A stretch of 37,359 nt of DNA from a virus. Shown here in pieces: positions 1,247 to 29,495 of the stretch (within the stretch, counting starts at the first letter, position 1; each line of letters starts with the position of its first letter). Location: positions 1 through 37,359 of the IMG/VR virus record IMGVR_UViG_3300025413_000742, one strand, 5' to 3'. The position numbers and the translations under genes were made by a program. The notes under the pieces were generated by a model. The model did no database searches. It saw only the letters and a list, made by a program, of their open reading frames with translations, and was not told where the DNA came from.

Positions 1247-1254
1247 TATTTATC
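1247..1254 (-). promoter_or_regulatory. possible late promoter overlapping the stop codon of the large curlin-repeat gene
   Basis: GATAAATA contains the TAA stop (1250-1252) of the preceding gene. RNA started here would meet the terminator at 1179-1200 before reaching the 52-residue gene, so function is doubtful. Confidence 0.3.
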
Positions 1255-3463
1255 TATTTTGTTGAACTGATACACTACATCCGGCGCCATTAGTACAAGT
1301 TTGTTGAACTACAAAAGTCTGTCCTTGAGTTTGAGCCTGTTGTAATAAATTAACTGTGCTTGCTCCGCCTTGGTTGGCCACATTAATTAATGCACCGTTA
1401 TTGTTACCTGCCTGACCAACTGTAATATTGTTGCCCGGTCCTGTTACAGTAACAGCAGATAAGTTTCCGTTGCCATTTTGATTTACTGTTGCGGTATTGT
1501 TGTTGCCGTTAATAGAAGTATAACCTTGATTGTTATTGCCATTTTGTATTGTAGTGGCTGTATTGTAATTGCCAGTTACTCCAAGTATAACGCTGTTCAT
1601 TAAGCCAGTTTGTTGGCTTGTAACATTATTGTTATTACCTGAAACATTTAAGGCTGCAAAGTTGTTATTGCTGACCATTGTAGATTCACTTGGCACACCT
1701 ATACTATTGACAGTAAATCCTTGGTTAGCACTTACTTTGTTGCTCACACCGGATACTGTCATCTCAATATCATTACCTTGGCCTTTTTGTGTGGCCTGTA
1801 TAGTATTGCTAGTGCTACCTATTGTTTGATTAATTGTGATAGCGTTAACTAGTGTACCTCTGTAACGATTAAGATCGGCAGGAGTTAAACTCTGGCCCGG
1901 AGTTATCGTATAATTATCCGTAGTAGTTGTAGTTGTCATAGTGGTGCCATTGGACGTTGTACTAGTTCCATCGCTGTAGTTAGTAGTGGTTACAGGTGTA
2001 GTATTTGTTGTAGTTACAGTTTCAATTATTGTGCCTGTAAAACTATAGTTGTCTGAATTGTTGGTATACTGATTGGTTACACTACTAGTTGTAGTATTAG
2101 AACTAGATGACACACTATCACTAGTGCTGGTGCTAGTTACAGTAGGAGCAGAACTACCTCCACTTGATTGTCCAGATGCTAAAGGTGTTGTAGATCCCGA
2201 AGAAGCAAAAGTGTCAACTTGCGAATTACTAGGATTCAATGTACCAGTCCAAGTATAACCACCGTTACCTGAAAAACCGTAGTTGGTACTGAATAACTGT
2301 CCTGTGTTATTATCGTTACCTACAAAGAAAAACAGCGAGTGACCACTGCTATCTGTACCCATACTTAATATATGTCCTGTGCCAATAGTACCTGCTAGTG
2401 TACCATCACTGTTATAGACGTTGGCTTGATATGGATTAGTAGCGTCACCTGTAGTTGAAAATTGAATATATTGTCCAGGTTGCCAATTCCATTGTCCGCT
2501 AGTCCAAGGTATTCTATAAGCAGTTCCTGGATTAGTACTGTATATCTGGCAAGTATTTGTCTGGGTACAAGAACTAACATTCCATTGACTGTCTGCTACT
2601 TGATACTGACCAAATCTTAAATCTGTAAACACTGGACCACTGCTAGGCGGCGGTGATGGAGGAGGTGCGCCTCCAGTACCTTGTGTTTGCGCTGGAGTTG
2701 CGGCCGCTGTGAATCCTGAACTAGAACTTGGAGTACAAGTAAAAGGATTCGTACCAGCTGAACAAGGGCCAGCATACGCACCAATTTCAATACTAGGATT
2801 AGTACTAGTTTGTGTGCCGTTTAAACTAAAACTAAAATTGTAAGTAATGCCAGATGTGACATTTATACCTTGATAGATACCATCAAATGTTCCAACGGCA
2901 CCATCAATCCAAGTACCTGCCGTACTGGTGTTTACGCCTAAACCGCCTGTGTATGTTCCCATCCATCCTTGCCCTGGAGCATAATACATACCTGCCGCAG
3001 GCGGAGCACCGGCGGCGCTTTGATACCAAATGCCCCAATCTGCTGGTGCTTGTAATCCATACTGTGTATTGGTTGTACCACCGTATTGTAAATTAGGATT
3101 TTGTAATAAGTTTGTTAAACTTGTTCCGGTAGTAATACTAAAATTACCTATGCCCCAGTAACCAGGATCTTGACGAATGGCAACACCAAAGTAATCAACA
3201 CCAGTAGTGGGTGCGGTAAAAGAATAGGAATAGTTTACGTATGTACTAGGAGTTGTATAGTTTACAATGCCAATAGGGTTAGGCGGCAAATTTTGAGCGT
3301 GAGATTTACTAGCAAAAATAAAAGATAAGATAAGGAAAACAATAGGTAAGACTGTAACCATAAGGATACCTTTCCTTAGATTGCTTTGCTGTATTGCTTG
3401 TTTTTCGGCTTCGTGTTTACGCCAAAACTTAATACTTGCAGAAGTAAAATTGTTTCTTATCAT
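1250..3463 (-). CDS. large exported protein with C-terminal curlin-type repeats (amyloid/adhesin candidate)
   Basis: This 737-residue protein has a signal or anchor segment at about 31-56 (hydrophobic run ending SKSHAQ), after an unusually long N-region. Next come a Trp/Tyr/Gly-rich domain (about 57-260), a Pro/Ser linker (about 264-277), a second aromatic domain (about 278-430), a Ser/Thr-rich stalk (about 430-530), and from about 550 to the end repeats of the curlin kind (GNNNxxxxxQxG spacing, such as TIQNGNNNQG). It ends the csgF-csgG-curlin-FecR gene series, so it is probably exported through CsgG as a surface fibre subunit or adhesin. The ATG at 3463 has a weak ribosome site; an in-frame ATG at 3361 has a strong one (AAGGAAAGG) but would drop the positive N-region. 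The signal and repeats are seen; the role is inferred. Confidence 0.7.
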   Translation of the reverse strand: MIRNNFTSASIKFWRKHEAEKQAIQQSNLRKGILMVTVLPIVFLILSFIFASKSHAQNLPPNPIGIVNYTTPSTYVNYSYSFTAPTTGVDYFGVAIRQDPGYWGIGNFSITTGTSLTNLLQNPNLQYGGTTNTQYGLQAPADWGIWYQSAAGAPPAAGMYYAPGQGWMGTYTGGLGVNTSTAGTWIDGAVGTFDGIYQGINVTSGITYNFSFSLNGTQTSTNPSIEIGAYAGPCSAGTNPFTCTPSSSSGFTAAATPAQTQGTGGAPPPSPPPSSGPVFTDLRFGQYQVADSQWNVSSCTQTNTCQIYSTNPGTAYRIPWTSGQWNWQPGQYIQFSTTGDATNPYQANVYNSDGTLAGTIGTGHILSMGTDSSGHSLFFFVGNDNNTGQLFSTNYGFSGNGGYTWTGTLNPSNSQVDTFASSGSTTPLASGQSSGGSSAPTVTSTSTSDSVSSSSNTTTSSVTNQYTNNSDNYSFTGTIIETVTTTNTTPVTTTNYSDGTSTTSNGTTMTTTTTTDNYTITPGQSLTPADLNRYRGTLVNAITINQTIGSTSNTIQATQKGQGNDIEMTVSGVSNKVSANQGFTVNSIGVPSESTMVSNNNFAALNVSGNNNNVTSQQTGLMNSVILGVTGNYNTATTIQNGNNNQGYTSINGNNNTATVNQNGNGNLSAVTVTGPGNNITVGQAGNNNGALINVANQGGASTVNLLQQAQTQGQTFVVQQTCTNGAGCSVSVQQNR

Positions 3464-3464
3464 T

Positions 3465-4610
3465 TTATTTCCAAGTTTGAGTAATTACTATGCTTCCAGT
3501 GCTCTTTCCGCTAGAAGAAAAATTAAATGCATCAGTGATACGATCTTGTGTTACTACAACAACTGCTTGTGTATTCAATGGCAGTACAATATTAGCATAG
3601 TTGTGACCACTACTACTTAGACTTTCGTAACCCCATCCCATTTGTTGTGTTTTGCTGGCATCTTTATACAGCTCGTATACATTTGAATCGCCTGTGGTTT
3701 TATCTTTAACATCTATACCTTCTGTTTTTAGACTATCAGCAGTAATTGATATTATTTTTCCCTGTTCGTCTTGGTTAGGCATCTTACCATTAGGTCCTAC
3801 ATTACCACTATTGATAGCAGTATTTTCAACTAGACTAGGTGTGTTATCACTACTTTTACTATCGTCTTTTTTGGCATCGTCTCGCTTTTTAGCATCACCG
3901 GTTTTTTCAGCGGCTTGTCTTGCGGCCACTTGGATCAACACACCTCCCGATGTACGTAATGGACTTAACATTAAGTTATTGCCAATAGGAGTATTTGTCA
4001 ACTCTACTATGACTGGAGGTAATGGAGCGGCACTTAACGTTTCGACCAGTGTGGCCATGTAGGGCTTGTCCATGTGTACGGTATGTCCGCCAGACTCTAC
4101 ATCAATCTTGCCCGATCCACAAGTAAGTCCTTTTAAATTTACACTGCCTTCTATTTCACAAGTCGGCATAAGGATAACAGCACTCTTACCTGTTTCGTCT
4201 ACACTCATGACAAAATCTGTACCACGAACAGCAATAGCCGCTGTAGGTGTTTTAATGTTTACTGAGTTAGGATTGTTATGTGCTATATTGCCAGATACAT
4301 ATCTAACTGTACCTTCTGCGGCCTTAAGACTTAGCTTGCCACTTTTAGCTTTTGGATCATAGATAAAATCGTCTATTACTAATGCGCTACTGGCTGTAAC
4401 TCGTACAGTAGTATCGTCTTTAAATGTTATTTTTACATCACCGTTCTTAGTTTCTACACGATCATTCATTTCGACCGGGGTGCCTTTGGCAATAGAAATA
4501 GTGTTGCTGCCACGTTTAATGACAGCAACACCTGTTAAGTCAGTCACTGAACCTATGTCTGCACATGCCGCTGTTGCGACTAACAACAATAATAATGCAA
4601 GACGTTTCAC
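3465..4610 (-). CDS. exported FecR-domain protein
   Basis: This 381-residue protein has a signal peptide (hydrophobic 3-16, likely cut after AACA). The FecR fold follows, with the diagnostic TPTAAIAVRGTDF motif at 121-133. A Lys/Asp-rich linker at about 240-255 leads to a C-terminal domain I do not recognise. FecR domains occur in sigma-factor signalling, but also in stand-alone periplasmic or surface proteins beside secreted repeat proteins; with no sigma-factor gene nearby, the second role fits better. The start is GTG at 4610, 7 nt after AAGGAG. It begins 9 nt after the curlin gene stops, and its stop is 1 nt from the next start. The Cys at 16 lacks a good lipobox, so a lipoprotein is unlikely. 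Confidence 0.8.
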   Translation of the reverse strand: MKRLALLLLLVATAACADIGSVTDLTGVAVIKRGSNTISIAKGTPVEMNDRVETKNGDVKITFKDDTTVRVTASSALVIDDFIYDPKAKSGKLSLKAAEGTVRYVSGNIAHNNPNSVNIKTPTAAIAVRGTDFVMSVDETGKSAVILMPTCEIEGSVNLKGLTCGSGKIDVESGGHTVHMDKPYMATLVETLSAAPLPPVIVELTNTPIGNNLMLSPLRTSGGVLIQVAARQAAEKTGDAKKRDDAKKDDSKSSDNTPSLVENTAINSGNVGPNGKMPNQDEQGKIISITADSLKTEGIDVKDKTTGDSNVYELYKDASKTQQMGWGYESLSSSGHNYANIVLPLNTQAVVVVTQDRITDAFNFSSSGKSTGSIVITQTWK

Positions 4611-5505: not shown

Positions 5506-6357
5506 TTATTTTTCTAACACTTCAGGTGTTGGTTTTTCAACAGGTGTTGGTTTTACAACACCAGCTTTGAATTTCCATAACCCTTGACGCTCTCCTTTCT
5601 TAACTAATTCTACAATTCCTGATTCGATGGCACTACGTAACGCATAGTTACCAGGTTCATTAAATGTTTGGCTAGAATCAATTTCAAAACTTTGTGTGTA
5701 GTTGTTAAAGAATTTCATACCAGTCATACCATCGCTGGTACTTAACAAATTCTTTTCAACTGTAACTGTTGTTAAAACTTCTCCGGTCTGTACACTTACT
5801 AATCGTAGACTAATAACAACAATGTCTTGCGTGTATTGTGTTTGGGCACCGATACCAAATACTGCAATGCCACTGCCGCCAGTAAGAGTATTACTGTTAT
5901 AGTCAATGATCCCGCCTTCAACGATAACACCAGCCATTGTTAATGGAGGTAACATCTTAGCATTAGCACCTTCGTAGATTTCACGAGTCTGCTTGATCAT
6001 TTGACGCTCTTTCAAAAGGTTATCAAGGCCAACACGTTCAACTACTGTAAACCATTGGCGATTGCCTGCCTCTTGCATAGTTTTAATCAAGTATGCTTCC
6101 GCACCTTGAGTCACCGCAGTGCTAAACAAACTTAATGTTTGGCTAGGCTTGCGCTGTCCTGTTAAATCTTTAAATCCGTAAATTGCAACACTGATTGGAG
6201 GACCGTCTGGTGCTGGCAATGTGTTAATTTCTTTTGTCATTGTCCCAGATACAACTGGTGCATCTTTCATTTCAACCGAGCCCATTGGACGTACTGTACT
6301 ACAACCTGTAATAGCTAATACCGCCAGGGCGATTAAAGATAATTTTAATTTATTCAT
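5506..6357 (-). CDS. csgG: CsgG-like curli secretion lipoprotein (outer-membrane pore)
   Basis: This 283-residue protein (E. coli CsgG has 277) has a lipoprotein signal with lipobox ITGC (Cys19). CsgG signatures follow: INTLPAP (about 44-50), GFKDLTGQRKP (61-71), FSTAVTQGA (78-86), ERVGLDNLLKERQ (107-119), the IVEGGIIDYNSN and GGSGIAVFGIG segments, and RLVSVQTGEVL. CsgG forms a nine-fold lipoprotein pore that exports curlins. The loop that forms the pore constriction in E. coli (YPASNF) is here SQTLSLF, one residue longer, keeping the Phe but not the Tyr and Asn. The ATG follows AAGGAC by 6 nt and starts 9 nt after the csgF stop. Identification is firm; the pore's cargo (the repeat proteins downstream) is inferred from position. 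Confidence 0.93.
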   Translation of the reverse strand: MNKLKLSLIALAVLAITGCSTVRPMGSVEMKDAPVVSGTMTKEINTLPAPDGPPISVAIYGFKDLTGQRKPSQTLSLFSTAVTQGAEAYLIKTMQEAGNRQWFTVVERVGLDNLLKERQMIKQTREIYEGANAKMLPPLTMAGVIVEGGIIDYNSNTLTGGSGIAVFGIGAQTQYTQDIVVISLRLVSVQTGEVLTTVTVEKNLLSTSDGMTGMKFFNNYTQSFEIDSSQTFNEPGNYALRSAIESGIVELVKKGERQGLWKFKAGVVKPTPVEKPTPEVLEK

Positions 6358-6366
6358 TATTCGTCC

Positions 6367-6849
6367 TTAAAATGCAAAACTTGCGATTGGAACTACAACT
6401 GTAGTTTTAGTGCCAGCAGAATCAACTACAGTAAGTGTAACACTACTTGTACCTTTCTGCCATGTAACCGTATTGCCGTCTAAATTAAAATTACCAGTCT
6501 GTGGATTCGAACATCCAGCAATAGCACTACCATCAGCGGCTTTACAATTATTCTGGAATAGGTTATTTGATAGCTGTGTGGCTAATTGTGCATAAACTTG
6601 GCTTTGGAACAAGCTCATGAACTTGGCCATTGGCGTATTTTGACTGGCAGTTAGCGCAGCCTGGTTGGCGGCATCTTTCTGCGCCTGTATAGAATCTTTC
6701 TGCGCTTTTTCCATCTGCTGTAAGGTCAGTACTTGTGTACTCCAACCATTCCCACTGAATGTTGGATCTTTGAACTGTTGTACTAATTCTGCCCTTGCAA
6801 AATTTGCAGTCAGTATGCAAAAAGTACTGACTAAAAGTATTTTTTTCAT
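6367..6849 (-). CDS. csgF: CsgF-like curli assembly factor
   Basis: This 160-residue protein has a signal peptide cut after ARA (20), so the mature protein starts ELVQQFKDPTFSGNG. That matches the mature N-terminus of CsgF (FQFRNPNFGGNP in E. coli), the part known to plug into the CsgG pore. The middle is Gln/Ala-rich and helical (about 44-75), and the C-terminal half is beta-rich (NFNLDGNTVTW...), as in CsgF but about 20 residues longer. CsgF couples secretion to nucleation at the cell surface. It is the first gene of the operon, with AGAGGAG 7 nt before the ATG and a late-promoter-like site inside an inverted repeat upstream. No csgE, csgC or csgD is seen in the window. Confidence 0.88.
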   Translation of the reverse strand: MKKILLVSTFCILTANFARAELVQQFKDPTFSGNGWSTQVLTLQQMEKAQKDSIQAQKDAANQAALTASQNTPMAKFMSLFQSQVYAQLATQLSNNLFQNNCKAADGSAIAGCSNPQTGNFNLDGNTVTWQKGTSSVTLTVVDSAGTKTTVVVPIASFAF

Positions 6850-8148: not shown

Positions 8149-9363
8149 TTACTCTCCGGAGTAGGCCAATTCGTCGTCGGGTATATCAGTAGTATTTACT
8201 GTGGGATTAGGCGCAGTTTCGTCAGGTGCTACAGGCTGTTGTGCTATAGCTACTGGTTTTACTGGCTTAACTGCTTTAGTTGGAGGAGGAGGTAATTTAC
8301 GCTCCCCGTCATGCGGTAACTCTTTTGTATTGGCTTTTTTAGCTGGTTTCTTTTTGTCTAGCTTTTTAATTGCGCCATCAATTGGATCCCATCTACGTCC
8401 GCCTGTAGGTTGTACTGATATCCTTGCTCCAGGAATACCGGCATTATCTCTATCACCCTTGTAGGAGATATTTAGTACAGGGTCAAATCCACCATCAGGT
8501 GTGATGCCGTTTGGCCAAGTATTGTCTACACCAAAAATTTCAAATGTGTCTTTATCTAAAGATCTAATATGAATATCGCCAGCCATTACTGCATCAACAT
8601 TACTAGGGCCGGGTTCACCGCCAAACTGTTTACCAAACACAATTTGATTTTTTAATGTTGGATCAGCAATTTCACGGCCCATGGACGTTGCTTTAGGGAT
8701 ACCTTCTTTGCCAAATAATAATTGGGCTTGTGCTATAAAATCTTGTATTTCAGGATTCTGGAAAACTGGAGCATGTGTAACTCCTCCCCATCCTGCAATT
8801 GCTCTAGGGCCTGGACCGTCTTTTAGACTAATCCATGCAACTGGGTTACCACTTCCGTCAACAATTTCTGCATCAGCTTTTACACCAGGTGTAGCTTTAT
8901 GTACACCGCCGGCTTGCACAATTCTATTGCCTACTTTTAGATCAATAGTTTTTACACCACGTTTTTGTGTATTATAAATTATGTGCTGATTTATGTTTTC
9001 AATTTGACCCTGTTCGATACGTTCACGAGACGCTGGCTCTTCACCGCCAAAATCTTTGTCTTTGGCTATTTTATTAAGAGAAACATATGGATACTGTTTG
9101 TTCGTTGTTTTAAGTTGTAGATTTGTACGTTCTTGCGCACCTGCGTCAGTTAACCAGTATGCAACTCTGTTTACTTCTTTCGGTGAGTTATCTAGTTTAA
9201 CTGGTATTCTTACAATTTTACCATCTACTTTTTCTTCAATATGTACTGTTGCACCGTCAGTTACTTTTTTTAGCAAGACGGTTCCACGCCATCTGGTGCG
9301 AGGGTCGAGCAGTTGGGCTCTGCTCAAAGTAGCCATTTCATTAATAATATCGATTACACGCAT
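8149..9363 (-). CDS. phage protein with possible PD-(D/E)XK-like core
   Basis: This is a 404-residue protein without signal or membrane segment. The centre (about 136-185: RGVKTIDLKVGNRI, then KADAEIVD and WISLKDG) has the layout of a PD-(D/E)XK nuclease core, with Asp164 after a strand and a SLK (179-181) on the next; that reading is tentative. The C-terminal 90 residues are low-complexity, Pro/Lys-rich and then acidic. The N-terminus MRVIDIINEMATL resembles capsid-targeting leaders of T4-like internal head proteins, which the prohead protease cuts after I-x-E. The ATG is 7 nt past a perfect TATAAATA (9371-9378) and has no Shine-Dalgarno. It may be a head-packaged protein; a nuclease role is unproven. 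Confidence 0.5.
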   Translation of the reverse strand: MRVIDIINEMATLSRAQLLDPRTRWRGTVLLKKVTDGATVHIEEKVDGKIVRIPVKLDNSPKEVNRVAYWLTDAGAQERTNLQLKTTNKQYPYVSLNKIAKDKDFGGEEPASRERIEQGQIENINQHIIYNTQKRGVKTIDLKVGNRIVQAGGVHKATPGVKADAEIVDGSGNPVAWISLKDGPGPRAIAGWGGVTHAPVFQNPEIQDFIAQAQLLFGKEGIPKATSMGREIADPTLKNQIVFGKQFGGEPGPSNVDAVMAGDIHIRSLDKDTFEIFGVDNTWPNGITPDGGFDPVLNISYKGDRDNAGIPGARISVQPTGGRRWDPIDGAIKKLDKKKPAKKANTKELPHDGERKLPPPPTKAVKPVKPVAIAQQPVAPDETAPNPTVNTTDIPDDELAYSGE

Positions 9364-9382
9364 AGTGTAATATTTATACTAT
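9362..9382 (-). promoter_or_regulatory. perfect T4 late promoter overlapping the bilin-reductase stop codon
   Basis: TATAAATA (9371-9378) contains the TAA stop (9374-9376) of the upstream gene. Arms ATAGT/ACTAT (9362-9366, 9378-9382) flank it and would pair over the next start codon in read-through RNA. Confidence 0.7.
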
Positions 9383-10060
9383 TTCAGGGAACAGACAATT
9401 CTGAATGAAAATCTGTACATCTTCTTCACTTAACCCTAAACTGACCATTACACGTGGTGTATGTGGGTTTTGCTTTTGATTTAGGCAGTAGTAATTTTGC
9501 TCTGCTGTAGTATCTTCTACAGTATTATTAGTCTCACCTACTGATTCTAAGTAATGTGCCAGCGTAGTATGTGCCATAGCAGTTATTTGATCTAACTCTG
9601 CTTCATCGCTAACATTACCTGCGGCAACCATGCTAGGGCTGAATATATTAGTAGCCCATTCGGGTAAAGTACGTGGTTTACGCCACTCTAACTTTGCTAC
9701 TTCTCCAGCAAACCATTCCATCATAGGATGATTAGGATCGCCAGCTTTTGAATAATCGTGGAAACAACCAGTCATTTTGTTCTTGCCAGCTACTACATCA
9801 AAGCCGTAAATTGGAGCAGGATTATGTGTATGTGGAAAGATGCAACAATGCATCATCCAGAGTCCTTTAGTATCTCTCGCATCAACCACGTCAACGTGAG
9901 CACGGCGATAACAATCACTAGTCCATACACGATTAATCCAGCCAGGTTGGTTAAAACGATCCATCCCAGGTTCGAAAATTTCAGTCCCAGTCCGGCCAAA
10001 TTCGCTCTCCAATAGATGCTGAATCTCGATTAATGTATCCCATACTTTACTTGATGTCAT
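9374..10060 (-). CDS. pcyX: ferredoxin-dependent bilin reductase, PcyX/PebS-like
   Basis: This 228-residue protein has the family layout: RRAHVDVVDAR (52-62), MMHCCIFPHTHN (69-80), PIYGFDVVAGK (83-93), TGCFHDYSK (97-105) and NIFSP (138-142). His71 and Asp88 align with the catalytic His and Asp of PcyA/PebS enzymes, with the same spacing. The family reduces biliverdin IXa using ferredoxin. PcyX, known from marine viral metagenomes beside a heme oxygenase, makes phycoerythrobilin; that product is inferred here and the exact subfamily should be settled by phylogeny. It overlaps the heme oxygenase gene by 14 nt, so both enzymes are translationally coupled. No phycobiliprotein or lyase gene is seen, so the pigment's use is open. 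Confidence 0.82.
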   Translation of the reverse strand: MTSSKVWDTLIEIQHLLESEFGRTGTEIFEPGMDRFNQPGWINRVWTSDCYRRAHVDVVDARDTKGLWMMHCCIFPHTHNPAPIYGFDVVAGKNKMTGCFHDYSKAGDPNHPMMEWFAGEVAKLEWRKPRTLPEWATNIFSPSMVAAGNVSDEAELDQITAMAHTTLAHYLESVGETNNTVEDTTAEQNYYCLNQKQNPHTPRVMVSLGLSEEDVQIFIQNCLFPEIV

Positions 10061-10598
10061 TTGATATTTCTAGCATTTCTTTAAACAGTTGTGTAGCAAA
10101 CTCAAAACATACAGTTGCTTCATCTGCCATGTCATCACTAATCTTTGCACGAATAGCTGACTTAAGACCGTCTGGATCATTAAATTTATACATTTCACCC
10201 TTGCCTGGGACCTTTTTAGCAATCATTTGTCCGCCAGCAAGATCACCCATATGGCGAACATAGATATGTGCCATAAGACGTTTTGGATCATCTTTAATGC
10301 TCATAATGTAGTCCATATACTTTTGTACAGTTGGACACATAATTGGGGTTTCTTTATTGTCACTGCCCCATAATTCAATAAAATCATTAAGGATAGCAGG
10401 TGCTCGACGAACATCCGGCATATCACTTAACAAGCCGTGCATCATCGCACAAACTTCTAGGATTTCGTAACATGGATGCTGATTTTTTAAAAATGTAGCA
10501 TACAGTTTAGGATTGATATTACCCGAAAATAAAATCTTTACAAACTCTTGTCGTTCAGCATTTTTATGTGCTTCGTGTGTTAAATCTCTTAGGCTCAT
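10047..10598 (-). CDS. ho1: heme oxygenase (HO-1 type)
   Basis: This 183-residue protein has the proximal heme ligand His11 in the LTHEAHKNAE segment (compare EVHTQAE in HO-1). The distal-helix signature GDLAGGQ is at 118-124, after HIYVRHM. Heme oxygenases open heme to biliverdin IXa, CO and Fe2+ using reductant and oxygen. At 183 residues it is shorter than cyanobacterial HO1 (about 240), lacking the C-terminal extension, a size usual in viral copies. Its ATG overlaps the clpS stop (ATGA) and it overlaps the bilin-reductase gene by 14 nt, giving a coupled clpS-ho-pcyX series. Biliverdin should pass directly to the reductase; freed iron is another possible benefit. Confidence 0.92.
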   Translation of the reverse strand: MSLRDLTHEAHKNAERQEFVKILFSGNINPKLYATFLKNQHPCYEILEVCAMMHGLLSDMPDVRRAPAILNDFIELWGSDNKETPIMCPTVQKYMDYIMSIKDDPKRLMAHIYVRHMGDLAGGQMIAKKVPGKGEMYKFNDPDGLKSAIRAKISDDMADEATVCFEFATQLFKEMLEISNDIK

Positions 10599-10894
10599 TC
10601 TTCTTCCAATTTAATTTGTAATGGATGTCCTGCGGTTCTAGCTTGTTGTGTAGATTCAACAGCTTTAGCCTCAGCAATTTCAAAACTATATACACCCGCA
10701 ATGCCGCTACCAGTTTCATGCACTGTAAGCATAATTTCCTGAGCTGTTTCTTGAGTATGTTTAAAGATACTAACTAATATAGATATAACAAATTCCATTG
10801 GAGTAGAATCGTCATTCAACAGGATTACTTTCCAACGCTTTGGCTCTGTGGCCTTAATCTTGATCTTTTCTTCGATCTGAATATCAGTAGACAT
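10595..10894 (-). CDS. clpS: ClpS-like adaptor for ClpAP (N-degron recognition)
   Basis: This 99-residue protein is close in length to E. coli ClpS (106). It has the core WKVILLNDD (21-29) and TPMEFV (31-36), TVHETGSGIAGVYSFEIAE (about 57-75) and a C-terminal HPLQ segment. The N-degron pocket residues are present: Asn27-Asp28, the gatekeeper-type Met33 and His59. ClpS delivers proteins with bulky N-terminal residues to ClpAP. No clpA or clpP gene is seen, so it would act with host ClpAP and could redirect that protease. It overlaps the heme oxygenase start by 4 nt, and lies 42 nt after hsp20, separated by a strong hairpin. Confidence 0.92.
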   Translation of the reverse strand: MSTDIQIEEKIKIKATEPKRWKVILLNDDSTPMEFVISILVSIFKHTQETAQEIMLTVHETGSGIAGVYSFEIAEAKAVESTQQARTAGHPLQIKLEEE

Positions 10895-10936: not shown

Positions 10937-11362
10937 TTATTTAACTTCGATTTGACGAGGCTTCAATGCTTCTGGCATAATACGTTCAATTCGAACGACT
11001 AACATTCCGTCAACCACTTCAGCTTCTTTTACTTCCATGTACTCAGCAAGAGTCCAATTTTGTTCAAAGTTACGTGCGGCTAAACCACGATGCAAATACT
11101 CTTTGTTGTCAGTATCTGATTCTGCTTTTACACCACGCACTACCAATTGATCTTGGTCCACTTCTACTGTAATTTCTTCTTTACTGAATCCTGCTACTGC
11201 TACTTCAATAGCATAATCACTATCACTATACTTCACAATGTTATGTGGAGGATAGTTTGAGTGTGCTCTAGTATTGTTAAAATACTGATCAAACCCTACA
11301 AGGGCTCTGCTGATCTGTGCTAGATCAGCTGGGTTAATAGTTCTAAGTTGCATTTGTGACAT
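10937..11362 (-). CDS. hsp20: Hsp20/alpha-crystallin small heat-shock protein
   Basis: This 141-residue protein is IbpA-like: a short N-terminal arm (IxxALVGFDQYFN), YPPHNIVKYSDSDYAIEVAVAGFSK-type alpha-crystallin strands from about 38, LVVRG, a LAARNFEQNWTLAEYMEVKEAEV segment, and a C-terminal tail. Small heat-shock proteins hold unfolding proteins for refolding by DnaK/ClpB, and Hsp20 genes are common in marine T4-like phages. The start at 11362 follows AAGGAGAT by 5 nt; a longer frame to 11386 is rejected. It has its own consensus sigma70 promoter within the dnaK 3' end and a 5'-terminal hairpin, so it can be expressed apart from dnaK. Confidence 0.93.
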   Translation of the reverse strand: MSQMQLRTINPADLAQISRALVGFDQYFNNTRAHSNYPPHNIVKYSDSDYAIEVAVAGFSKEEITVEVDQDQLVVRGVKAESDTDNKEYLHRGLAARNFEQNWTLAEYMEVKEAEVVDGMLVVRIERIMPEALKPRQIEVK

Positions 11363-11377
11363 TTTATATCTCCTTAT

Positions 11378-11425: not shown

Positions 11426-11454
11426 ATTATATTACTTGTTTCCTTCTTTGTCAA
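11426..11454 (-). promoter_or_regulatory. consensus sigma70 promoter for hsp20
   Basis: TTGACA (11449-11454), a 17-bp spacer and TATAAT (11426-11431) match the full consensus. The -35 and spacer lie in the last codons of dnaK and the -10 starts just past its stop. Confidence 0.85.
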
Positions 11455-13339
11455 CTTCTGTGAAACTAGCATCTACTGTTTCACCTTCTGCTGACTGTTC
11501 AGGTGCGGCTGCCTTAGCGGCTTCTGCGGCCTGCTTCTTAGTCATCAATGGACCTGCGCTTTCAAAAAGTTTAGTTACTGCATCAGTAATCTTTTCTTTG
11601 TCTTCGCCAGCCATTGCTTCATCTAATGCAGTTCTAGCAGTTTCAAACTCTGTCTTTTCTTCTTCAGTGATTTGATCTTTAAATTCATCATAATCCTTGT
11701 TCAAAGAATGACGAGTTGATTCTGCTTGATTACGTGCATTGATTAGCTCTGCTGCCTTCTTATCTGACTCTGCATTTTCTTCAGCTTCTTGAACCATGCG
11801 TTGGATCTCAGCTTCTGTCAATCCTGAATCAGACTTGATAGTAATCTTGTTTTCTTTGCCAGTGTTTTTATCTTTGGCACTTACATTAAGAATACCGTTG
11901 GCATCAATATCAAGTGTCACTTCAATTTGTGGCATGCCACGTAGTGCTGGTGCAATACCTTCTAAATTAAATTCACCTAATAGTTTGTTGTACTTAAACA
12001 ACTCACGTTCACCTTGTGCAACCTTAATAGTTACAGCTGGTTGATTGTCTTCTGCTGTTGAGAATGTTTGCGAGTGTTTAGTTGGAATTGTTGTATTCTT
12101 AGCAATCAACTTGGTAAACACACCGCCCATTGTTTCAATACCCAATGTTAATGGTGTAACGTCTAACAATAGAACATCAGTCTTGTCACCTGCTAGAACA
12201 GCACCTTGTACTGCGGCACCTGCGGCCACTGCTTCGTCTGGGTTAACGTCTTTACGTGGTGCCTTGCCGAATAGTTTCTCAACTGCTTCTTGTACTTTAG
12301 GCATACGTGTTTGTCCACCAACTAGGATAACTTCGTCAATGTCTGCGGCTGTTACTTTAGCATCTGCCATAGCAACTTTACATGGATCAATCGAGCGTTG
12401 GATTAACTTCTCAACCATTGATTCAAATTTGCTACGTGAAATTGTAACGTTCATGTGTTTAGGACCATTTGCATCAGCTGTGATGTATGGCAAGTTAACA
12501 CTTGTGCTTGCGGCAGTAGACAACTCAATCTTAGCCTTTTCAGCGGCTTCTTTCAAACGTTGTAGTGCAAGTACGTCTTGCTTCAAATCAACGCCGTTGT
12601 CTTTCTTGAACTCGTCTACCAAGTAATCCATAATAACTTGGTCAAAGTCTTCACCGCCTAGGAATGTGTCGCCGTTAGTTGACAGTACTTCAATTTGCTT
12701 GTCGCCATCAATGTTGGCAATTTCGATAATTGAAATATCAAATGTACCACCACCTAAGTCGTATACAGCAATCTTACGATCACGCTTGTCTGCTTTGTCA
12801 ACACCATATGCCAGTGCAGCCGCTGTTGGCTCGTTAATGATACGTAGAACTTCTAAACCAGCAATACGTCCTGCATCTTTAGTAGCTTGACGTTGTGAAT
12901 CATTGAAGTAAGCTGGAACTGTAATAACTGCTTGAGTAACTGTTGTACCCAAATAGTCTTCAGCCGTCTTTTTCATCTTGCGTAGAACTTCTGCTGACAC
13001 TTGTTGTGGAGCAAGTTTTTCACCATTAGCTTCGATCCAAGCATCACCGTTGTCTGCCTTAACAATAGCGTAAGGCATTAGATCGATGTCCTTCTGGACT
13101 TCTTTCTCGTCAAACTTACGTCCGATTAGACGCTTGCTTGCGTAGATAGTATTCTTTGGATTTGTGACTGCTTGTCGTTTTGCTGTTGCACCTACTAAGA
13201 TTTCGTCTTTTGTATATGCAATGATTGATGGTGTTGTTCTAGCACCTTCGCTGTTTTCGATTACTTTTGCAATTCCGTTTTCTAGAATTGCCACACAGCT
13301 ATTTGTTGTACCTAAATCGATACCGATGATTTTGCTCAT
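11432..13339 (-). CDS. dnaK: DnaK (Hsp70) molecular chaperone, full length
   Basis: This 635-residue protein (E. coli DnaK has 638) is complete. The ATPase domain starts [17 protein letters not shown] with the phosphate-1 loop, followed by [39 protein letters not shown] and the [13 protein letters not shown] adenosine motif. The linker [10 protein letters not shown], a substrate-binding domain (GGVFTKLI...[13 protein letters not shown]), helical lid and an acidic tail ending [14 protein letters not shown] follow. Nothing suggests decay. No dnaJ or grpE gene is seen, so it must use host co-chaperones. The start at 13339 follows AAGGAGAT by 6 nt. A full DnaK is rare in phages. Promoter and leader resemble phage late genes, which supports phage control rather than assembly error. 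Confidence 0.96.
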
Positions 13340-13354
13340 AATAATCTCCTTTAA

Positions 13355-15388: not shown

Positions 15389-16546
15389 CTACACTCTGTT
15401 CTTCACTTGTATCTGACCCGTCTCGTCCTTGGTCATGTATGTCTTTTTTTTTGATTCTTCTTCGGCACCCAATATATCAGAAAACAAAGTTGTCTTGGCT
15501 GGTGCTTCTTCAACCGCAGGTACTTCTGCACCTTCGTTGTTAATATAAGTTTCACCTTTAGCTACACGTTCTTCAACAGTTGATTCTACTGCAATATGTT
15601 TTTCAGCTTCTTCAACCATTTTATTCCATTTTTCCAATTCTGAATCTTCAGTCATTGGAACATGTTGTTCTGTATTGTCTTCTACAATAGTAGCAGGCTC
15701 TAAATCTGTGTCTTCTTCAATTTGGATTTCTTCTGGCGTAGGTTTTTCTCCGACAAATGTATCCAATTCGGCAATATTAAGTTCTTTTTGTTCTCTAGTC
15801 CAAGCAAATGTCATCTGTGAGGCTAACAACATGATAACTGCTAGCGGGTCAAATACAATAACAATTAAGATAATGATCCAGGTAACTGCTCGTTCGAGCA
15901 TTGACTCGTCTGGAGAGGAACCGTATATAAAGGCGGCAATATATTTGATAGGCCCGACTTCAGCTTCGACCTTTCGTACCTCAGCCGCGATAGGAGCTCT
16001 TTCTTCGTTAAGAGCGGAAATTCGTTTTTGGGATTCCGTAATTTCTTGGCCCAATCGACTGCGATCCTTTTGTTGGGCTTTACGTATTGCGACTGCTTTG
16101 TCTGCACCTTTTTCATCTTGTGAGCGTGCCATAACTTGGTCCACTGCTTCATCAAGTTGTTTGAGAGCTTTGCGGTTAGCATCTATATTTTCCTTCTCTA
16201 TCTTAATTTTTTCATCGTATATGGCAATTTTACTGGTAACATCTCCGCTTACTAAACTTTGATCATTGTGTGCTTTGGAAAGGAATCCAAAAATACCCAT
16301 TGAGGTAATAAGCATTAGTACTACAACCGCAATGGTCATATAGTACTTCATGAAACGTGGAGCCTTTTCCCAATTGGCTTTTAGCCAAGAGGCGCAGACA
16401 AGTTTGCCAATCTCCAAAGCCGATCCCATAATGATAATTGGGATTGCCGCCGCAGAGAAAATTGCGGTCAAACCTACTACTGAGTAATAGATTGCGACCG
16501 CAGAAATTGTTAAACCAGTTAGGAGTAAAAGCCAAGCAAGAATCAT
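15389..16546 (-). CDS. multi-pass membrane protein with central coiled coil
   Basis: This 385-residue protein has hydrophobic segments at about 2-20, 24-50, 70-90 and 220-245. Between the third and fourth is a long coiled coil (about 100-200, Lys/Glu/Ala-rich with heptads such as IDANRKALKQLDEAVDQV). The C-terminal 140 residues are acidic and low-complexity. The layout suits a membrane-spanning scaffold or sensor; T4-like phages often carry such genes without assigned function. The ATG has no Shine-Dalgarno and lies 9 nt after the preceding stop, so translation may depend on read-through. I cannot name its role. Confidence 0.6.
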   Translation of the reverse strand: MILAWLLLLTGLTISAVAIYYSVVGLTAIFSAAAIPIIIMGSALEIGKLVCASWLKANWEKAPRFMKYYMTIAVVVLMLITSMGIFGFLSKAHNDQSLVSGDVTSKIAIYDEKIKIEKENIDANRKALKQLDEAVDQVMARSQDEKGADKAVAIRKAQQKDRSRLGQEITESQKRISALNEERAPIAAEVRKVEAEVGPIKYIAAFIYGSSPDESMLERAVTWIIILIVIVFDPLAVIMLLASQMTFAWTREQKELNIAELDTFVGEKPTPEEIQIEEDTDLEPATIVEDNTEQHVPMTEDSELEKWNKMVEEAEKHIAVESTVEERVAKGETYINNEGAEVPAVEEAPAKTTLFSDILGAEEESKKKTYMTKDETGQIQVKNRV

Positions 16547-16555
16547 TAAGTTATA

Positions 16556-17137
16556 TTAACCAGCTAGAGTTGATTCGACAATACGTGTTACTGCCACTGT
16601 ACCAAATGTTTGAGTAGCTGTCATTCCAGTTGTAGTAACTGTAATAGCAAACTGTGTATCACCAACTGTTGGATTATATACACGTTGAGTTTCAGTAGTT
16701 ACATCACGAATGCCTTGAGCAATTGCATTTTGAATAGCAATAGCAGTTGTGCTAATCGGTGTTGAACCGTCAATGGCGTTTGCGCCAGTTACTGGAACGA
16801 ATGCAGGACGCTCGTAGTTTACTGTAAATTGTAAACTAGTTGCTTGTGCATCAGCGTTAGCTTCTGTAATAGTAATATCGCGAATTTGGCAATCTGCTAA
16901 ACCAGTTAAGCGGTTAATGATATTGCGGAAACGCATGTTACCTCTAGCACGAGCTTTACCAGTTACGTAGGTTGTTGGCAAGTTTGCTGTTGTAAAACTA
17001 TCTGATGAGTTAGGTGTTACACCGCCGTTGTCGTTGCCATCAGCTGTTGGGTAATAAGTGCTATTACTCATAGTGATGATAACTTTGTACATTTCAGCTT
17101 GTAGCTGATCTAAATCGTTTTGAAATCCTGATGGCAT
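16556..17137 (-). CDS. probable virion structural protein (193 aa)
   Basis: No named family is recognised. It is soluble, beta-rich and Thr/Ala-rich, with few charged residues, as expected for an ordered structural subunit. It opens with a short amphipathic helix (FQNDLDQLQAEMYKV). It has a late promoter (GATAAATA at 17160-17167) 22 nt before the ATG, and AGGAG 6 nt before the ATG. A strong hairpin just upstream separates it from the lysis genes. These expression signals and the composition suggest an abundant late protein; tail or head cannot be told apart. Confidence 0.5.
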   Translation of the reverse strand: MPSGFQNDLDQLQAEMYKVIITMSNSTYYPTADGNDNGGVTPNSSDSFTTANLPTTYVTGKARARGNMRFRNIINRLTGLADCQIRDITITEANADAQATSLQFTVNYERPAFVPVTGANAIDGSTPISTTAIAIQNAIAQGIRDVTTETQRVYNPTVGDTQFAITVTTTGMTATQTFGTVAVTRIVESTLAG

Positions 17138-20292: not shown

Positions 20293-20955
20293 TCATCTCC
20301 TAGGTTTAAAATGAAACACACCACCATTGGGTGCGTTCTTAGTATTATATATACTTATTAAGTTAAGTCCATGCATTCCGGCTAACATGATTAGTTTAGG
20401 ATCTTTGTTAACTTCAATAATATAAAGATCAGCATCATCTGTTAGATGCGCATTTATATTTTTATAAAATTCTCTATGAATGGCAAAATCTTGATCTACC
20501 AATATACGTAGCATATTTGGATCTGGATAATCCTTACTTGTTGCAACTTCATCAAATGTCCAGGGAGGGTTTGCAACAACTAAGTCCCAAATTTCTTCTT
20601 CAGGTAAGTTCTCAATTGCAGGACTTACATAACCTGTGATCTTGTCAGTTAAATTATTATTAGATGCAGTATTATAGCAATCTTGTATAGCTACATCATA
20701 GTAATCAGAAAACACCATATGATCGCATAATCCCAATCCTAATACTTCGAATCCAATAACTCCGAAACCAGCACACCATTCAAATCCGCGATCGTACTTT
20801 TCCTTGCCAGAATTTCTAATAGCTTTTATAATATTGGTTTTATAGTTTAAGCCGCCGCCGTCGAGATGTGCGGGAGAGTTAATCTTTATACCACAGTCTA
20901 AAGTAATGTCAAGAGGAGTCCAGTCTTTCTCATAATCCAATGACATTAATTTCAT
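20293..20955 (-). CDS. class I SAM-dependent methyltransferase with NPPW motif
   Basis: This 220-residue protein has motif I as EWCAGFGVIGFEVLG (59-73, a variant glycine loop), an acidic residue after strand 2 (SDYYD, 83-87), and motif IV NPPW (129-132) after DLVV. NPP(Y/W) occurs in enzymes that methylate amino groups of adenine, guanine or glutamine (RsmC-, PrmC-, and N6-adenine types), so the target is nucleic acid or protein. No target-recognition domain is seen, which argues against a restriction-modification enzyme. It overlaps the nrdB stop (ATGA). It may protect phage DNA or modify a host factor; I cannot say which. Confidence 0.7.
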   Translation of the reverse strand: MKLMSLDYEKDWTPLDITLDCGIKINSPAHLDGGGLNYKTNIIKAIRNSGKEKYDRGFEWCAGFGVIGFEVLGLGLCDHMVFSDYYDVAIQDCYNTASNNNLTDKITGYVSPAIENLPEEEIWDLVVANPPWTFDEVATSKDYPDPNMLRILVDQDFAIHREFYKNINAHLTDDADLYIIEVNKDPKLIMLAGMHGLNLISIYNTKNAPNGGVFHFKPRR

Positions 20956-22052
20956 AGTGATGGTAATGCTTCGTAATCTATGCCCTCTCCCATAACACCA
21001 ATAACATAGTTTGTTGACTCATTTTCTTGTAGAGCTGTTTGTTTTTTGCTTGTGTCGCTATGTTTATTAAACCACGGAATTGGCGTACTGCGTGGAGCGG
21101 CCTGTTGATACTTGATGCCGATATCTTTCAATGCGGCTACTGCTGTATAGTCAACAAAGTCTTTTAGAATATTAGCATTAAGACCGATCACTGGTCCCTT
21201 CTTAAACAAGTAGTCTGCCCATTCTTTTTCTTCACGAATAACATCTGTGTACATGGTGTAGACTTCTGCTTCACATTCAATTTTAGCATTGGCAAATCTT
21301 TCATCTTCTTTGACCACTTGATTAATCAAGTAAGCAGTCCAACCTTTGTGTAACAGTTCATCTTGTAGAATTAAACTAATAATGTTTCCATTGCCGATAA
21401 AGATCTTGTTTTCTACCATAGCAAGAGAAGTTGCAAATGACACCATGAAGCGGAAGGCTTCGAGGGCATAGCTTGCATTAAGAGCCAACCAAATAGCTTT
21501 GATATGTGTCTGTTCATTGATCTTCTCTCCAGATTCTTTTCGACAATTAATAAGATGTAATGCATCATAGTAGTTGCCTACACTTGACGCCATGCTAACA
21601 ATCTCTTCTGTATCATGGATAGTGTTGAACACATCCTTAGGCACATTGTAGATGTTACGGATTATGTGACTGTAGCTCTTGCTGTGGATGTTGGTTTCAA
21701 AGAAGCCCCAGTTATACATAAGGGCTTCAACTTCTGGTAGTGAGCATACAGGAGTAAACACTTGCGTTGGGCCGCGTCCTTGTAAACTATCTAAAGCCGT
21801 TTGACGTAGCAAGTTGCTGGTAAAGATATGTTTAATAGCTTCACTTGCATCTTTAAAATCGTTAGCATCTTTGCTAAGACTAATTTCTTCTGGTTGCCAA
21901 AAGAAGCCACGTGCAGTAGCTTCAAAGTCTGCAATCTTTTTGTATTTTACTTCTTCAAAACGTTGGATAGTAACTGGTCCTGCTGGATCCAGAAACATCT
22001 TACGATTCAAATAGTCTGTTTTAGTTTTTAAGTTGTATTGTGCTTGACTCAT
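20952..22052 (-). CDS. nrdB: ribonucleotide reductase class Ia small subunit NrdB
   Basis: This 366-residue protein has the R2 fold with FFWQPEEISLSKD near 50, ETNIHSKSYSHIIRN (first helix with a metal ligand Glu, His and the radical Tyr), ALEAFRFMVSFATSL, and LQDELLHKGW (second Glu-His pair). The diiron-tyrosyl radical drives ribonucleotide reduction in NrdA. Oddly, Glu and His of the first pair are separated by three residues, not two, because of an extra Asn compared with E. coli (ETIHSRSY). The C-terminal tail is present. The ATG at 22052 is 1 nt after the aldolase stop. Confidence 0.93.
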   Translation of the reverse strand: MSQAQYNLKTKTDYLNRKMFLDPAGPVTIQRFEEVKYKKIADFEATARGFFWQPEEISLSKDANDFKDASEAIKHIFTSNLLRQTALDSLQGRGPTQVFTPVCSLPEVEALMYNWGFFETNIHSKSYSHIIRNIYNVPKDVFNTIHDTEEIVSMASSVGNYYDALHLINCRKESGEKINEQTHIKAIWLALNASYALEAFRFMVSFATSLAMVENKIFIGNGNIISLILQDELLHKGWTAYLINQVVKEDERFANAKIECEAEVYTMYTDVIREEKEWADYLFKKGPVIGLNANILKDFVDYTAVAALKDIGIKYQQAAPRSTPIPWFNKHSDTSKKQTALQENESTNYVIGVMGEGIDYEALPSL

Positions 22053-22053
22053 T

Positions 22054-22710
22054 TTAATATTTTCCTGATGCAAGTACTATCTTGCAAATGTGTTCTAATC
22101 TTTCTATGTGTTCGTAGGCACGCCATGGGCTTGTATCGATAGCTACTACTCCGTGACCTTTGATACCTACAATATCGTATGCAATATTGCCATCTCTATC
22201 TAATTTCAAATTCTTGTGACACTCATCGGCTAGCTCTTGACTGATTGGCGGAACATCGGGCACGTTAGGTGCTACCTTTGTATAGCGATTAAGTTCTGGA
22301 AAGGCATCACTGATCGTACTAAGGTCAATACCGGCATGCATGGCGGCTATGCAATAAGTAGGATGTACATGTACAACTACACGCACTTCATCTTTATGCT
22401 GGCCCATTTCGCGTTGTAGACCAAAGTGCAATGGGATCTCGCCACTAGGTACTAGATTCTTACTGATATCAGTATAAGGCAAGTCTCTCCAGTTATAGTT
22501 AAAACTAGCACTACCATAACCGCTTTGAATACTCTTATCAATACTAATCTTCTTGAACTGATCAGGTTGCATGGTCTGTTTGCGCACACCACTAGGGGTG
22601 ATATAAAAGTGATCACGGTCGTGGTGACGAATACTTACATTGCCGTCACGACTAGTAATCCAATTGCGCTTGTATGCGTCAACTAGTATATCACAAATAG
22701 TTTCTAACAT
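22054..22710 (-). CDS. class II aldolase/adducin-family enzyme
   Basis: This 218-residue protein has the zinc site of class II aldolases: Glu91 (PSGEIPLH), His114 and His116 (HVHPTY), and His186 (GIKGHG). An N-terminal TSRDGNVSIR (19-28) phosphate-binding segment and TPSGV (38-42) match fuculose-phosphate aldolase, ribulose-phosphate epimerase and methylthioribulose-phosphate dehydratase. The exact substrate cannot be read off. An insertion at about 66-88 (FNYNWRDLPYTD) is not in typical FucA. It lies within the nrd operon between a small protein and nrdB, overlapping the former by 7 nt, so it is co-expressed with nucleotide synthesis. It could feed or recycle sugar phosphates for phage use. 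Confidence 0.82.
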   Translation of the reverse strand: MLETICDILVDAYKRNWITSRDGNVSIRHHDRDHFYITPSGVRKQTMQPDQFKKISIDKSIQSGYGSASFNYNWRDLPYTDISKNLVPSGEIPLHFGLQREMGQHKDEVRVVVHVHPTYCIAAMHAGIDLSTISDAFPELNRYTKVAPNVPDVPPISQELADECHKNLKLDRDGNIAYDIVGIKGHGVVAIDTSPWRAYEHIERLEHICKIVLASGKY

Positions 22711-22889
22711 TCTTCTGGATCCTCAAATTCAATTACTAGTGCGTTGTCTTGATCTATCCATACTCGAAGCACATCATCTGCTGATAGCGCCTGAAGCACA
22801 GATTCCTTTGCTTCTTCTTCTATCTCATAATCTTCTGGTATTCCGTAGTATGTACGCCAGCATCGAAGTTCTTCATCTATAGTACTCAT
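22704..22889 (-). CDS. small acidic protein of unknown function (61 aa)
   Basis: I recognise no family. It is acidic with helical content (CWRTYYGIPEDYEIEEEAKESVLQAL) and an ending strand (NALVIEFEDPEEC). It overlaps the SGNH-hydrolase stop by 4 nt (ATGA) and the aldolase start by 7 nt, so it is part of the coupled nrd series. The overlaps at both ends support it as a real gene. Confidence 0.6.
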   Translation of the reverse strand: MSTIDEELRCWRTYYGIPEDYEIEEEAKESVLQALSADDVLRVWIDQDNALVIEFEDPEEC

Positions 22890-23590
22890 AGTTCATTAGT
22901 TATTAGTTTACCTGTACTGTAGTTATCTATTGCATTTTGAATCCAATTGAAAACAATTTCATTCTTTTTTTCGCCACCTAAATGATTCCAATCTGGATCA
23001 TTCAACACCGACCCGCCATTGATATTTCCGTCTAAACTAGAAACTAAACTCAGTGCTGGCCTAATTTCTAAACCATTTTTCCATCGATAATGATATTCGG
23101 CAGTGTATCTCCACATGTGGTGGAAACTCCATAGATGAATAATTTTTGTTTCTTTTGGAAATAATGGTAAAATAGTGTTATCAAAATATGACAGCACTCC
23201 TTTAGTCTGAAGTTCTACCAACTCATCAGAATACAAATATCTAAAATACTGTCTAGCCGCATCCCATTCTGGACCAGTATTAGATTCAGACATAACTTGT
23301 GAAAAACACATATGTCGAATATCTGGATGAAACAATCGATCTTTTGAAGTCCATACAAACACACAAACATCTGGGATTCGTTTCTCCTGTATAAACGGAG
23401 TAAGTTGAATTAAAATTGAATCATATATAGAACTTCCACCTTGCCCTATATTGACTATCTCTGCTTGATAATGCTTTTGTATTTTTTTAATATAAGTTTC
23501 ATAGGTTGGCCATATATCGTTGGTAGGCCAACCACCCCAGTCTTTATCTAACGTGGCGCAAAAGCTATCTCCAAAAAAACCTATCTTCAT
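22886..23590 (-). CDS. SGNH/GDSL-family hydrolase-like protein
   Basis: This 234-residue protein has block I GDSF (7-10, nucleophile Ser9), a NIGQGGSS segment (47-54, block II Gly) and block V as DPDWNHLGG (198-206: Asp200, His203, spacing DxxH). Block III is VWTSKDRL (79-86) in place of GxND, so the oxyanion Asn is changed. The family hydrolyses esters (lipids, acetylated sugars, peptidoglycan). Within an nrd operon its job is unclear; it may remove acetyl groups from host glycans or act on another substrate. The start at 23590 overlaps the nrdA stop (ATGA); an upstream in-frame ATG at 23599 is less likely. Confidence 0.6.
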   Translation of the reverse strand: MKIGFFGDSFCATLDKDWGGWPTNDIWPTYETYIKKIQKHYQAEIVNIGQGGSSIYDSILIQLTPFIQEKRIPDVCVFVWTSKDRLFHPDIRHMCFSQVMSESNTGPEWDAARQYFRYLYSDELVELQTKGVLSYFDNTILPLFPKETKIIHLWSFHHMWRYTAEYHYRWKNGLEIRPALSLVSSLDGNINGGSVLNDPDWNHLGGEKKNEIVFNWIQNAIDNYSTGKLITNEL

Positions 23591-28826: not shown

Positions 28827-29495
28827 TTACTGTGCGTACCATACTGGCAATTGATTGTGTTTTTTCCAAAAAGTTTTCATATACGTTTCAAATTCATCAA
28901 AATATTCTTCTGGAATTAAATCGATTACTATATGAGTTCTTGGGCTAGTCCCGTTATTAGATCCAGAGTGGACTACCATATTGTTAAATTCATATACTGA
29001 CCCAACTTCCATACACATAGACATATCTCCACATTGCATCACAGTTTCAGCATTAGTGTTAATTGGCACATGGACTCGTCGAGTCATAGACAACCACCAG
29101 CTGTGTCCTTGAGAATTATCTACATGAGGTTTTATACTAGTACCCGGGGACATGTAATTTACTTCTGCAATGTATATTTTAAATCCAGGATTTAACTCTT
29201 CAACCCTAGAAAATATGTCTAGACACAGGGGAAAAAAATCTAAAATTTGATTATACTGTTCTGCAAGATGTGGTTGAGTTAATAGATCTAGTCTGTCTTG
29301 ATATTTACGAAAGAAGAATGGAAATTGATACCAGTGTATGCCATCCCACCAATCTGGAAAACGTCTTACTCTTTCCTCTTTTACATTGCCTAGTATATAA
29401 GTTGCAATGGGTTCAAGTATAGCTGGATCAATACTTCCTAATCGTATAATTGGTGTATCAGGTTTTGTGTACCAGTGCGTCGACGGAATTGGCAT
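28827..29495 (-). CDS. aspartyl/asparaginyl beta-hydroxylase-like Fe(II)/2-oxoglutarate dioxygenase
   Basis: This 222-residue protein has a double-stranded beta-helix with the iron site HVD (124-126) and a later His (VVHSG, His176), and a probable 2-oxoglutarate-binding Arg (SPRTHIV, Arg186). The TRRVHVPINTN and YEFNNMVVHSG segments match the Asp/Asn/Arg hydroxylase family. These enzymes hydroxylate side chains of proteins or small molecules; the target here is unknown. It starts 3 nt after the preceding stop and has no clear Shine-Dalgarno, so it probably depends on translation of the gene before it. The gene lies among late-type genes, so modification of a virion protein is a possibility. 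Confidence 0.78.
   Translation of the reverse strand: MPIPSTHWYTKPDTPIIRLGSIDPAILEPIATYILGNVKEERVRRFPDWWDGIHWYQFPFFFRKYQDRLDLLTQPHLAEQYNQILDFFPLCLDIFSRVEELNPGFKIYIAEVNYMSPGTSIKPHVDNSQGHSWWLSMTRRVHVPINTNAETVMQCGDMSMCMEVGSVYEFNNMVVHSGSNNGTSPRTHIVIDLIPEEYFDEFETYMKTFWKKHNQLPVWYAQ

Follow-up and report, generated by a model that had tools for sequence, protein, structure and literature searches.

An overlapping heme oxygenase-PcyX gene pair in an early-branching PcyX lineage of phages and its predicted route from heme to phycoerythrobilin

The window analysed here spans 37,359 bases and corresponds to a single virus record in IMG/VR. Its minus strand encodes a heme oxygenase (HemO or HO; 183 aa, positions 10047-10598), followed in the direction of transcription by a PcyX-type ferredoxin-dependent bilin reductase (FDBR; 228 aa, 9374-10060). 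Both ORFs are intact. Positions 10047-10060 are common to both, forming a coding overlap of 14 nt (bases read atgacatcaagtaa), as an earlier note on this DNA had reported with the same coordinates. The two genes are under purifying selection, with dN/dS values well below 0.2 (about 0.07-0.14 for the FDBR in three pairs, and 0.08-0.13 for HO in two usable pairs). Given these low ratios, the 354 relatives of the FDBR recognised in IMG/VR and the mean pLDDT of 92 obtained for the AlphaFold models of both proteins, the ORFs are not chance occurrences. The coding sequences of HO and FDBR overlap in 182 of the 223 relatives that hold both genes. In the 79 loci nearest to the window, which we call group A or clade A, HO lies beside the FDBR without exception. 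A further 80 loci, those nearest to locus L094, make up group C, and group B comprises the Mosig-type loci.

HO was matched by the Pfam profile Heme_oxygenase (PF01126) at 77.6 bits, against a cut-off of 23, and by solved heme oxygenases in a phmmer search (E 2.8e-15). When its AlphaFold model was submitted to Foldseek, solved heme oxygenases were again matched, the best being Synechocystis HO-1 (1WE1, TM 0.85 of the query). The proximal His11, encoded at 10566-10568 (minus strand), lies in a column occupied by His in all 217 viral HOs covering the position. The distal-helix motif GDLAGGQ (residues 118-124; 10227-10247, minus strand) falls on the G-D-L-x-G-G-Q columns, which are invariant in HO in alignment A4. 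The protein is short at 183 aa. Profile match, predicted fold, proximal His and GDxxGG motif together support its assignment to the HO-1 superfamily.

The reductase was matched by the Pfam profile Fe_bilin_red (PF05996) at 51.7 bits (cut-off 31). Its top phmmer match among solved structures was PcyX_EBK42635 (PDB 5OWG, E 6.6e-66), with PcyA next (E 2.3e-11), and 5OWG was also the best Foldseek match of its AlphaFold model (E 1.1e-15, TM 0.93 of the target, rmsd 1.4). PebA, HY2-type and PebS enzymes were reached weakly by a profile search, PebS 2VCK at E 4.7e-4. In two trees, the window FDBR, that of Pelagibacter phage Mosig, 5OWG and the viral groups A, B and C formed a single clade, supported by 100/99 and 100/100. 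Alphaproteobacterial PcyA was the nearest cellular group outside this clade, and cyanobacterial PcyA, PebA, PebB and PebS were farther away. The phylogeny that the earlier note had set as a check thus places the enzyme within the bilin reductases, in a clade with PcyX (100/100), and leaves that proposal standing. The closest cellular sequences in the tree, from Falsiroseomonas and Roseomonas, are 31-34% identical to the window FDBR; they differ in carrying Glu at the site of Asp57 and in lying outside the phage PcyX clade, a placement that agrees with the AX clade of alphaproteobacterial PcyA described in PMC10151467.

The residues singled out beforehand, His11 and GDLAGGQ in HO and His71 and Asp88 in the reductase, are all present, and the last two (codons at 9848-9850 and 9797-9799, minus strand) align with His88 and Asp105 of PcyA. 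A further active-site residue had been missed: Asp57 (9890-9892, minus strand), which aligns with PcyA Glu76 and corresponds to Asp55 of PcyX, where PcyX carries Asp. Asp57, His71 and Asp88 are invariant in 239 out of 239 relatives, this number being the yield of the first three viral searches. In work ascribed to Ledermann in 2018, exchanging the Asp of PcyX for Glu reportedly failed to convert the enzyme, and Asp57 is for this reason taken as a marker and not as proof of the product. A PcyA identity was rejected because Asp occupies the Glu position of the Glu76-His88-Asp105 triad and because the sequence falls outside the cyanobacterial and alphaproteobacterial PcyA clusters. An identity as PebS was rejected as well, cyanophage PebS being a distant outgroup in the tree. 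From its sequence, we identify the window reductase as PcyX: it clusters with the assayed enzyme, has Asp in place of Glu76, retains the His-Asp pair and belongs to a two-gene HO cassette of a phage. Of the label "PcyX/PebS-like" initially given to it, the first half is sustained by the trees, Asp57 and the 5OWG match, while the second half falls with the outgroup position of PebS.

PcyX_EBK42635 shares with the window FDBR its clade (100/99), the Asp-His-Asp site and the fold (rmsd 1.4), and it belongs to a type for which pairing with HO is known. It is, however, only about 50% identical and sits in the marine Mosig-type branch, whereas the window sits in a separate, early branch. The Pelagibacter phage Mosig EXVC030M, a myophage of a non-photosynthetic host, has a hemO-pcyX pair (Mosig_00053/00054) that also overlaps by 14 nt, its FDBR and HO being 49.6% and 47% identical to those of the window. 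Mosig lacks the Hsp20-ClpS block found upstream of the pair in the window, having 2OG-Fe(II) oxygenase genes upstream and neck genes downstream. We found no assayed member of clade A in the literature, and the clade is about 50% identical to assayed PcyX. As far as could be checked, clade A appears to be an early-branching and abundant PcyX lineage that has not been described, which extends PcyX beyond marine pelagiphages to a branch that diverged early and is very common among large phages. The pairing of PcyX with a heme oxygenase, mentioned in the earlier note from viral metagenomes, is on record from marine metagenomes, from the isolated Pelagibacter phage Mosig and from freshwater phages (PMC11480375). 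The same study reports that marine hemO-pcyX pairs make phycoerythrobilin (PEB), describes the cassette in pelagiphages and freshwater phages, and already poses its purpose as a puzzle. Since both the cassette and the puzzle have been published, the finding is less novel than had been implied.

Three genes precede the pair on the same strand. The one encoding the protease adaptor ClpS (10595-10894; Pfam PF02617, 103.5 bits) overlaps HO by 4 nt and is its conserved upstream neighbour. It is preceded by genes for a small heat-shock protein, Hsp20 (10937-11368; PF00011, 58.9 bits), also a conserved neighbour, and for the chaperone DnaK (11432-13342; identified by synteny and by tblastn identities of 69-72% to proteobacterial DnaK). 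Along transcription, the order is DnaK, Hsp20, ClpS, HO, PcyX, two genes without a Pfam match, a DUF3307 gene, CsgF and CsgG. The order Hsp20, ClpS, HO, FDBR on one strand was found in every locus holding all four genes (74 out of 74 in group A and 70 out of 70 in group C, that is, 144 out of 144). DnaK is present in 74 of the 79 group-A loci versus six of group C. In group B, HO and PcyX are present, and ClpS and Hsp20 were undetected on contigs many of which are short. A search of open-licence texts found no mention of ClpS linked with a phage heme oxygenase; as far as could be checked in that literature, the constant Hsp20-ClpS neighbourhood of HO-PcyX has not been described. The 404-aa protein encoded directly downstream of PcyX (8149-9363, minus strand) matches phrog_13937 alone, a family of unknown function, and its position is kept in a few relatives.

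While group-A reductases are 79-100% identical to the window FDBR, the HOs of the same loci fall into two types, with 58 loci showing at least 55% identity to the window HO versus 21 loci at 38-49% (the cut was placed at 50%). In the HO tree, the second type forms its own clade, supported by 99/89. On the group-A reductase tree, HO type switches seven times (6-8 in bootstraps, 15.7 with shuffled labels), a rough figure given that some branches inside the group are weakly supported; well-supported branches force at least four of the switches. All 79 loci keep an HO, and the exchange is therefore a replacement in a fixed slot, not a loss. In clade A, the HO slot is filled by either of two divergent HO types, with about seven switches, an exchange that we did not find described as far as could be checked. 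Repeated exchange of HO with the reductase held fixed argues that both steps are selected together, and such joint selection bears on the question of what bilins are made for by phages whose hosts are not photosynthetic.

The host is likely proteobacterial and non-cyanobacterial. The closest isolate, Mosig, infects Candidatus Pelagibacter ubique, and the window DnaK is nearest to beta- (71-72%) and gammaproteobacterial (69%) DnaK, a weak clue because the collections used were not built for this purpose. Both observations fit the non-cyanobacterial host suggested initially. We searched related records, many of them fragments and several of 128-280 kb, for partners of the pathway. In 25 related records, neither PHY nor GAF domains nor a phycobilisome protein were detected above cut-off, and no globin domain was found in the 17 records searched for it; a lone phycobilisome match (16.9 bits against a cut-off of 22.2, inside a 2305-aa ORF) was rejected as chance. 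The absence of a phycobiliprotein gene, noticed at first in the window, thus holds at this cut-off across whole records of its relatives. A plant-type (Fer2) ferredoxin was found in none of the 25 records, which suggests, together with the missing bilin-binding proteins, that the electron donor and any bilin partner are probably the host's. Ferrochelatase was detected in none of 32 records. Mosig_00059 (16354-17124 in locus L002) is annotated as a putative ferrochelatase, and Pfam PF00762 matches nothing in the whole Mosig record. Of 25 related records, seven contain the gene for 5-aminolevulinate synthase (AlaS) at a distance from the HO-PcyX pair, an arrangement also seen in the "broken cassettes" described in PMC11480375. 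One AlaS match, in locus L088 (G025:33178-34365), contains an in-frame TAA.

We propose that HO and PcyX would constitute a translationally coupled heme-to-bilin pathway, an auxiliary metabolic module of a large T4-related phage. During infection, HemO would open host heme to yield biliverdin IXalpha, iron and CO. By analogy with assayed PcyX, the reductase would then carry out a four-electron reduction of biliverdin via 15,16-dihydrobiliverdin to PEB, a pink bilin pigment and the expected end product. Host ferredoxin is proposed as the electron donor since none of the plant type was found in the relatives searched. The identity, intactness, purifying selection, family membership and coupling of the genes, as well as the conservation of the pair, are directly supported, and from these we infer both reactions and the PEB product. 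We assign a probability of about 0.82 to this chemistry, from heme through biliverdin IXalpha to PEB by a coupled HO-PcyX pair in a phage whose host is not a cyanobacterium and is probably a proteobacterium.

The product is where other enzymes of the family have to be weighed. A fourth viral search retrieved phage reductases in which Gln or Glu replaces the Asp of PcyX (L315-L319, L348 and L354), the Gln of L315-L318 being the residue of neither PcyA nor PcyX. Four representatives (L315, L316, L319 and L348) formed a sister clade of PcyX in the tree. In L348 and L315, an HO-like gene precedes the FDBR and overlaps it. This group would presumably also include the FDBR of the pmoC-phage CB_2. 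CB_2 is a large phage of a non-cyanobacterial host and combines HO, FDBR and AlaS, the last of which also occurs in relatives of the window; its FDBR, called PcyA/X, turned out to make phycocyanobilin (PCB; PMC11480375). The window enzyme could likewise be a PcyA-type reductase making PCB, given that CB_2 supplies the sole assayed freshwater phage FDBR known to us and that the clade of the window diverges early in PcyX, at about 50% identity to the assayed enzyme. We consider this unlikely, however, because PMC11480375 ascribes the PCB activity to the missing PcyX Asp55, a residue that the window FDBR has, and because the phage sequences without it form their separate clade while the window lies in the Asp clade (100/100). 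With Asp57 present, the window inside that clade and the PCB-making enzyme of CB_2 devoid of the residue, PEB is the predicted product. More generally, sequence divides the phage bilin reductases into those with Asp (PcyX) and those with Glu or Gln, and this division would predict the product. Cyanophages carry PebS and PcyA, and one rival, prompted by the PebS half of the label in the earlier note, is a PebS-type pigment gene serving the phycobilisomes of a cyanobacterial host. PebS of cyanophage P-SSM2 has the same expected end product and fold family, but it is not adjacent to its heme oxygenase and, as noted, branches far outside; no cyanophage FDBR exceeds 29.8% identity to the window FDBR, and the phycobiliprotein searches and the Pelagibacter host of the closest isolate point away from phycobilisomes, making such a role very improbable.

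As to why the phage would make a bilin, we favour the view that the removal of biliverdin would pull heme turnover forward, setting iron free and yielding a reduced bilin as well, over a role in light harvesting. Two alternative purposes are compatible with the PEB chemistry. Iron might be the whole purpose, with heme broken down to supply Fe2+ to phage iron enzymes and the reductase merely clearing biliverdin. Such a role is discussed in PMC11480375, the window encodes ribonucleotide reductase subunits (20952-25908) and an Asp/Arg beta-hydroxylase-like protein (28827-29495), and the pair is kept although HO type is freely exchanged; the failure to find a bilin-binding protein in the related records searched also fits. 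Nevertheless, a four-electron reductase whose active site is invariant and which strong purifying selection maintains exceeds the needs of product removal, and heme synthesis through phage AlaS, possible in some relatives, would consume iron and not gain it, so that we hold this purpose to be possible, at less than even odds. The bilin could otherwise act as chromophore or ligand for a host phytochrome, bilin-binding globin or other receptor, altering host signalling during infection. The CB_2 product assembles with phytochrome, and in Bradyrhizobium hemO, pcyA and alaS adjoin a phytochrome gene (PMC11480375). The absence above cut-off of PHY, GAF, phycobilisome and globin domains in the related records cuts both ways, offering no phage target for the bilin and thereby requiring one in the host; we regard this role as possible too, at slightly lower odds than the iron purpose.

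Returning to the preferred pathway and its neighbours, Hsp20, ClpS, HemO and PcyX might form one functional module in which phage ClpS redirects host ClpAP to break down host proteins, hemoproteins among them. The heme set free in this way would be both cleared and put to use by HemO-PcyX, and its HO part would be exchangeable between divergent types. This idea draws on genomic evidence, namely the order kept in 144 out of 144 loci, the ClpS-HO overlap and the approximately seven changes of HO type, and we offer it as a long shot. The link of ClpS with HO-PcyX is suggestive, and a conserved T4-like gene order would be a sufficient alternative without any functional connection.

The block also occurs in other settings. 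In L094, L095 and L096, Hsp20-ClpS-HO-PcyX lies on contigs filed as Halobacteroidaceae, Neomarinimicrobiota (335 kb) and Rickettsiales MAGs, which are apparently of phage origin and were sorted into bacterial bins. Some group-C phages (L269-L271; for example, L269 8491-9995) have a putative flavin-dependent tryptophan-halogenase-like gene, recognised by eye, between HO and PcyX, and a putative nitrilase-like gene occupies this place in L310 (2494-4752), L314 and L095. Farther downstream in the window, a curli-like cluster (1250-3463, 3465-4610 and 5506-6849, minus strand) comprises CsgG, CsgF, a FecR-domain protein and a 737-aa curlin-repeat protein. Curli genes are known in pelagimyophages, where CsgA and CsgB are missing (PMC7029224), whereas a curlin-repeat protein is present in the window.
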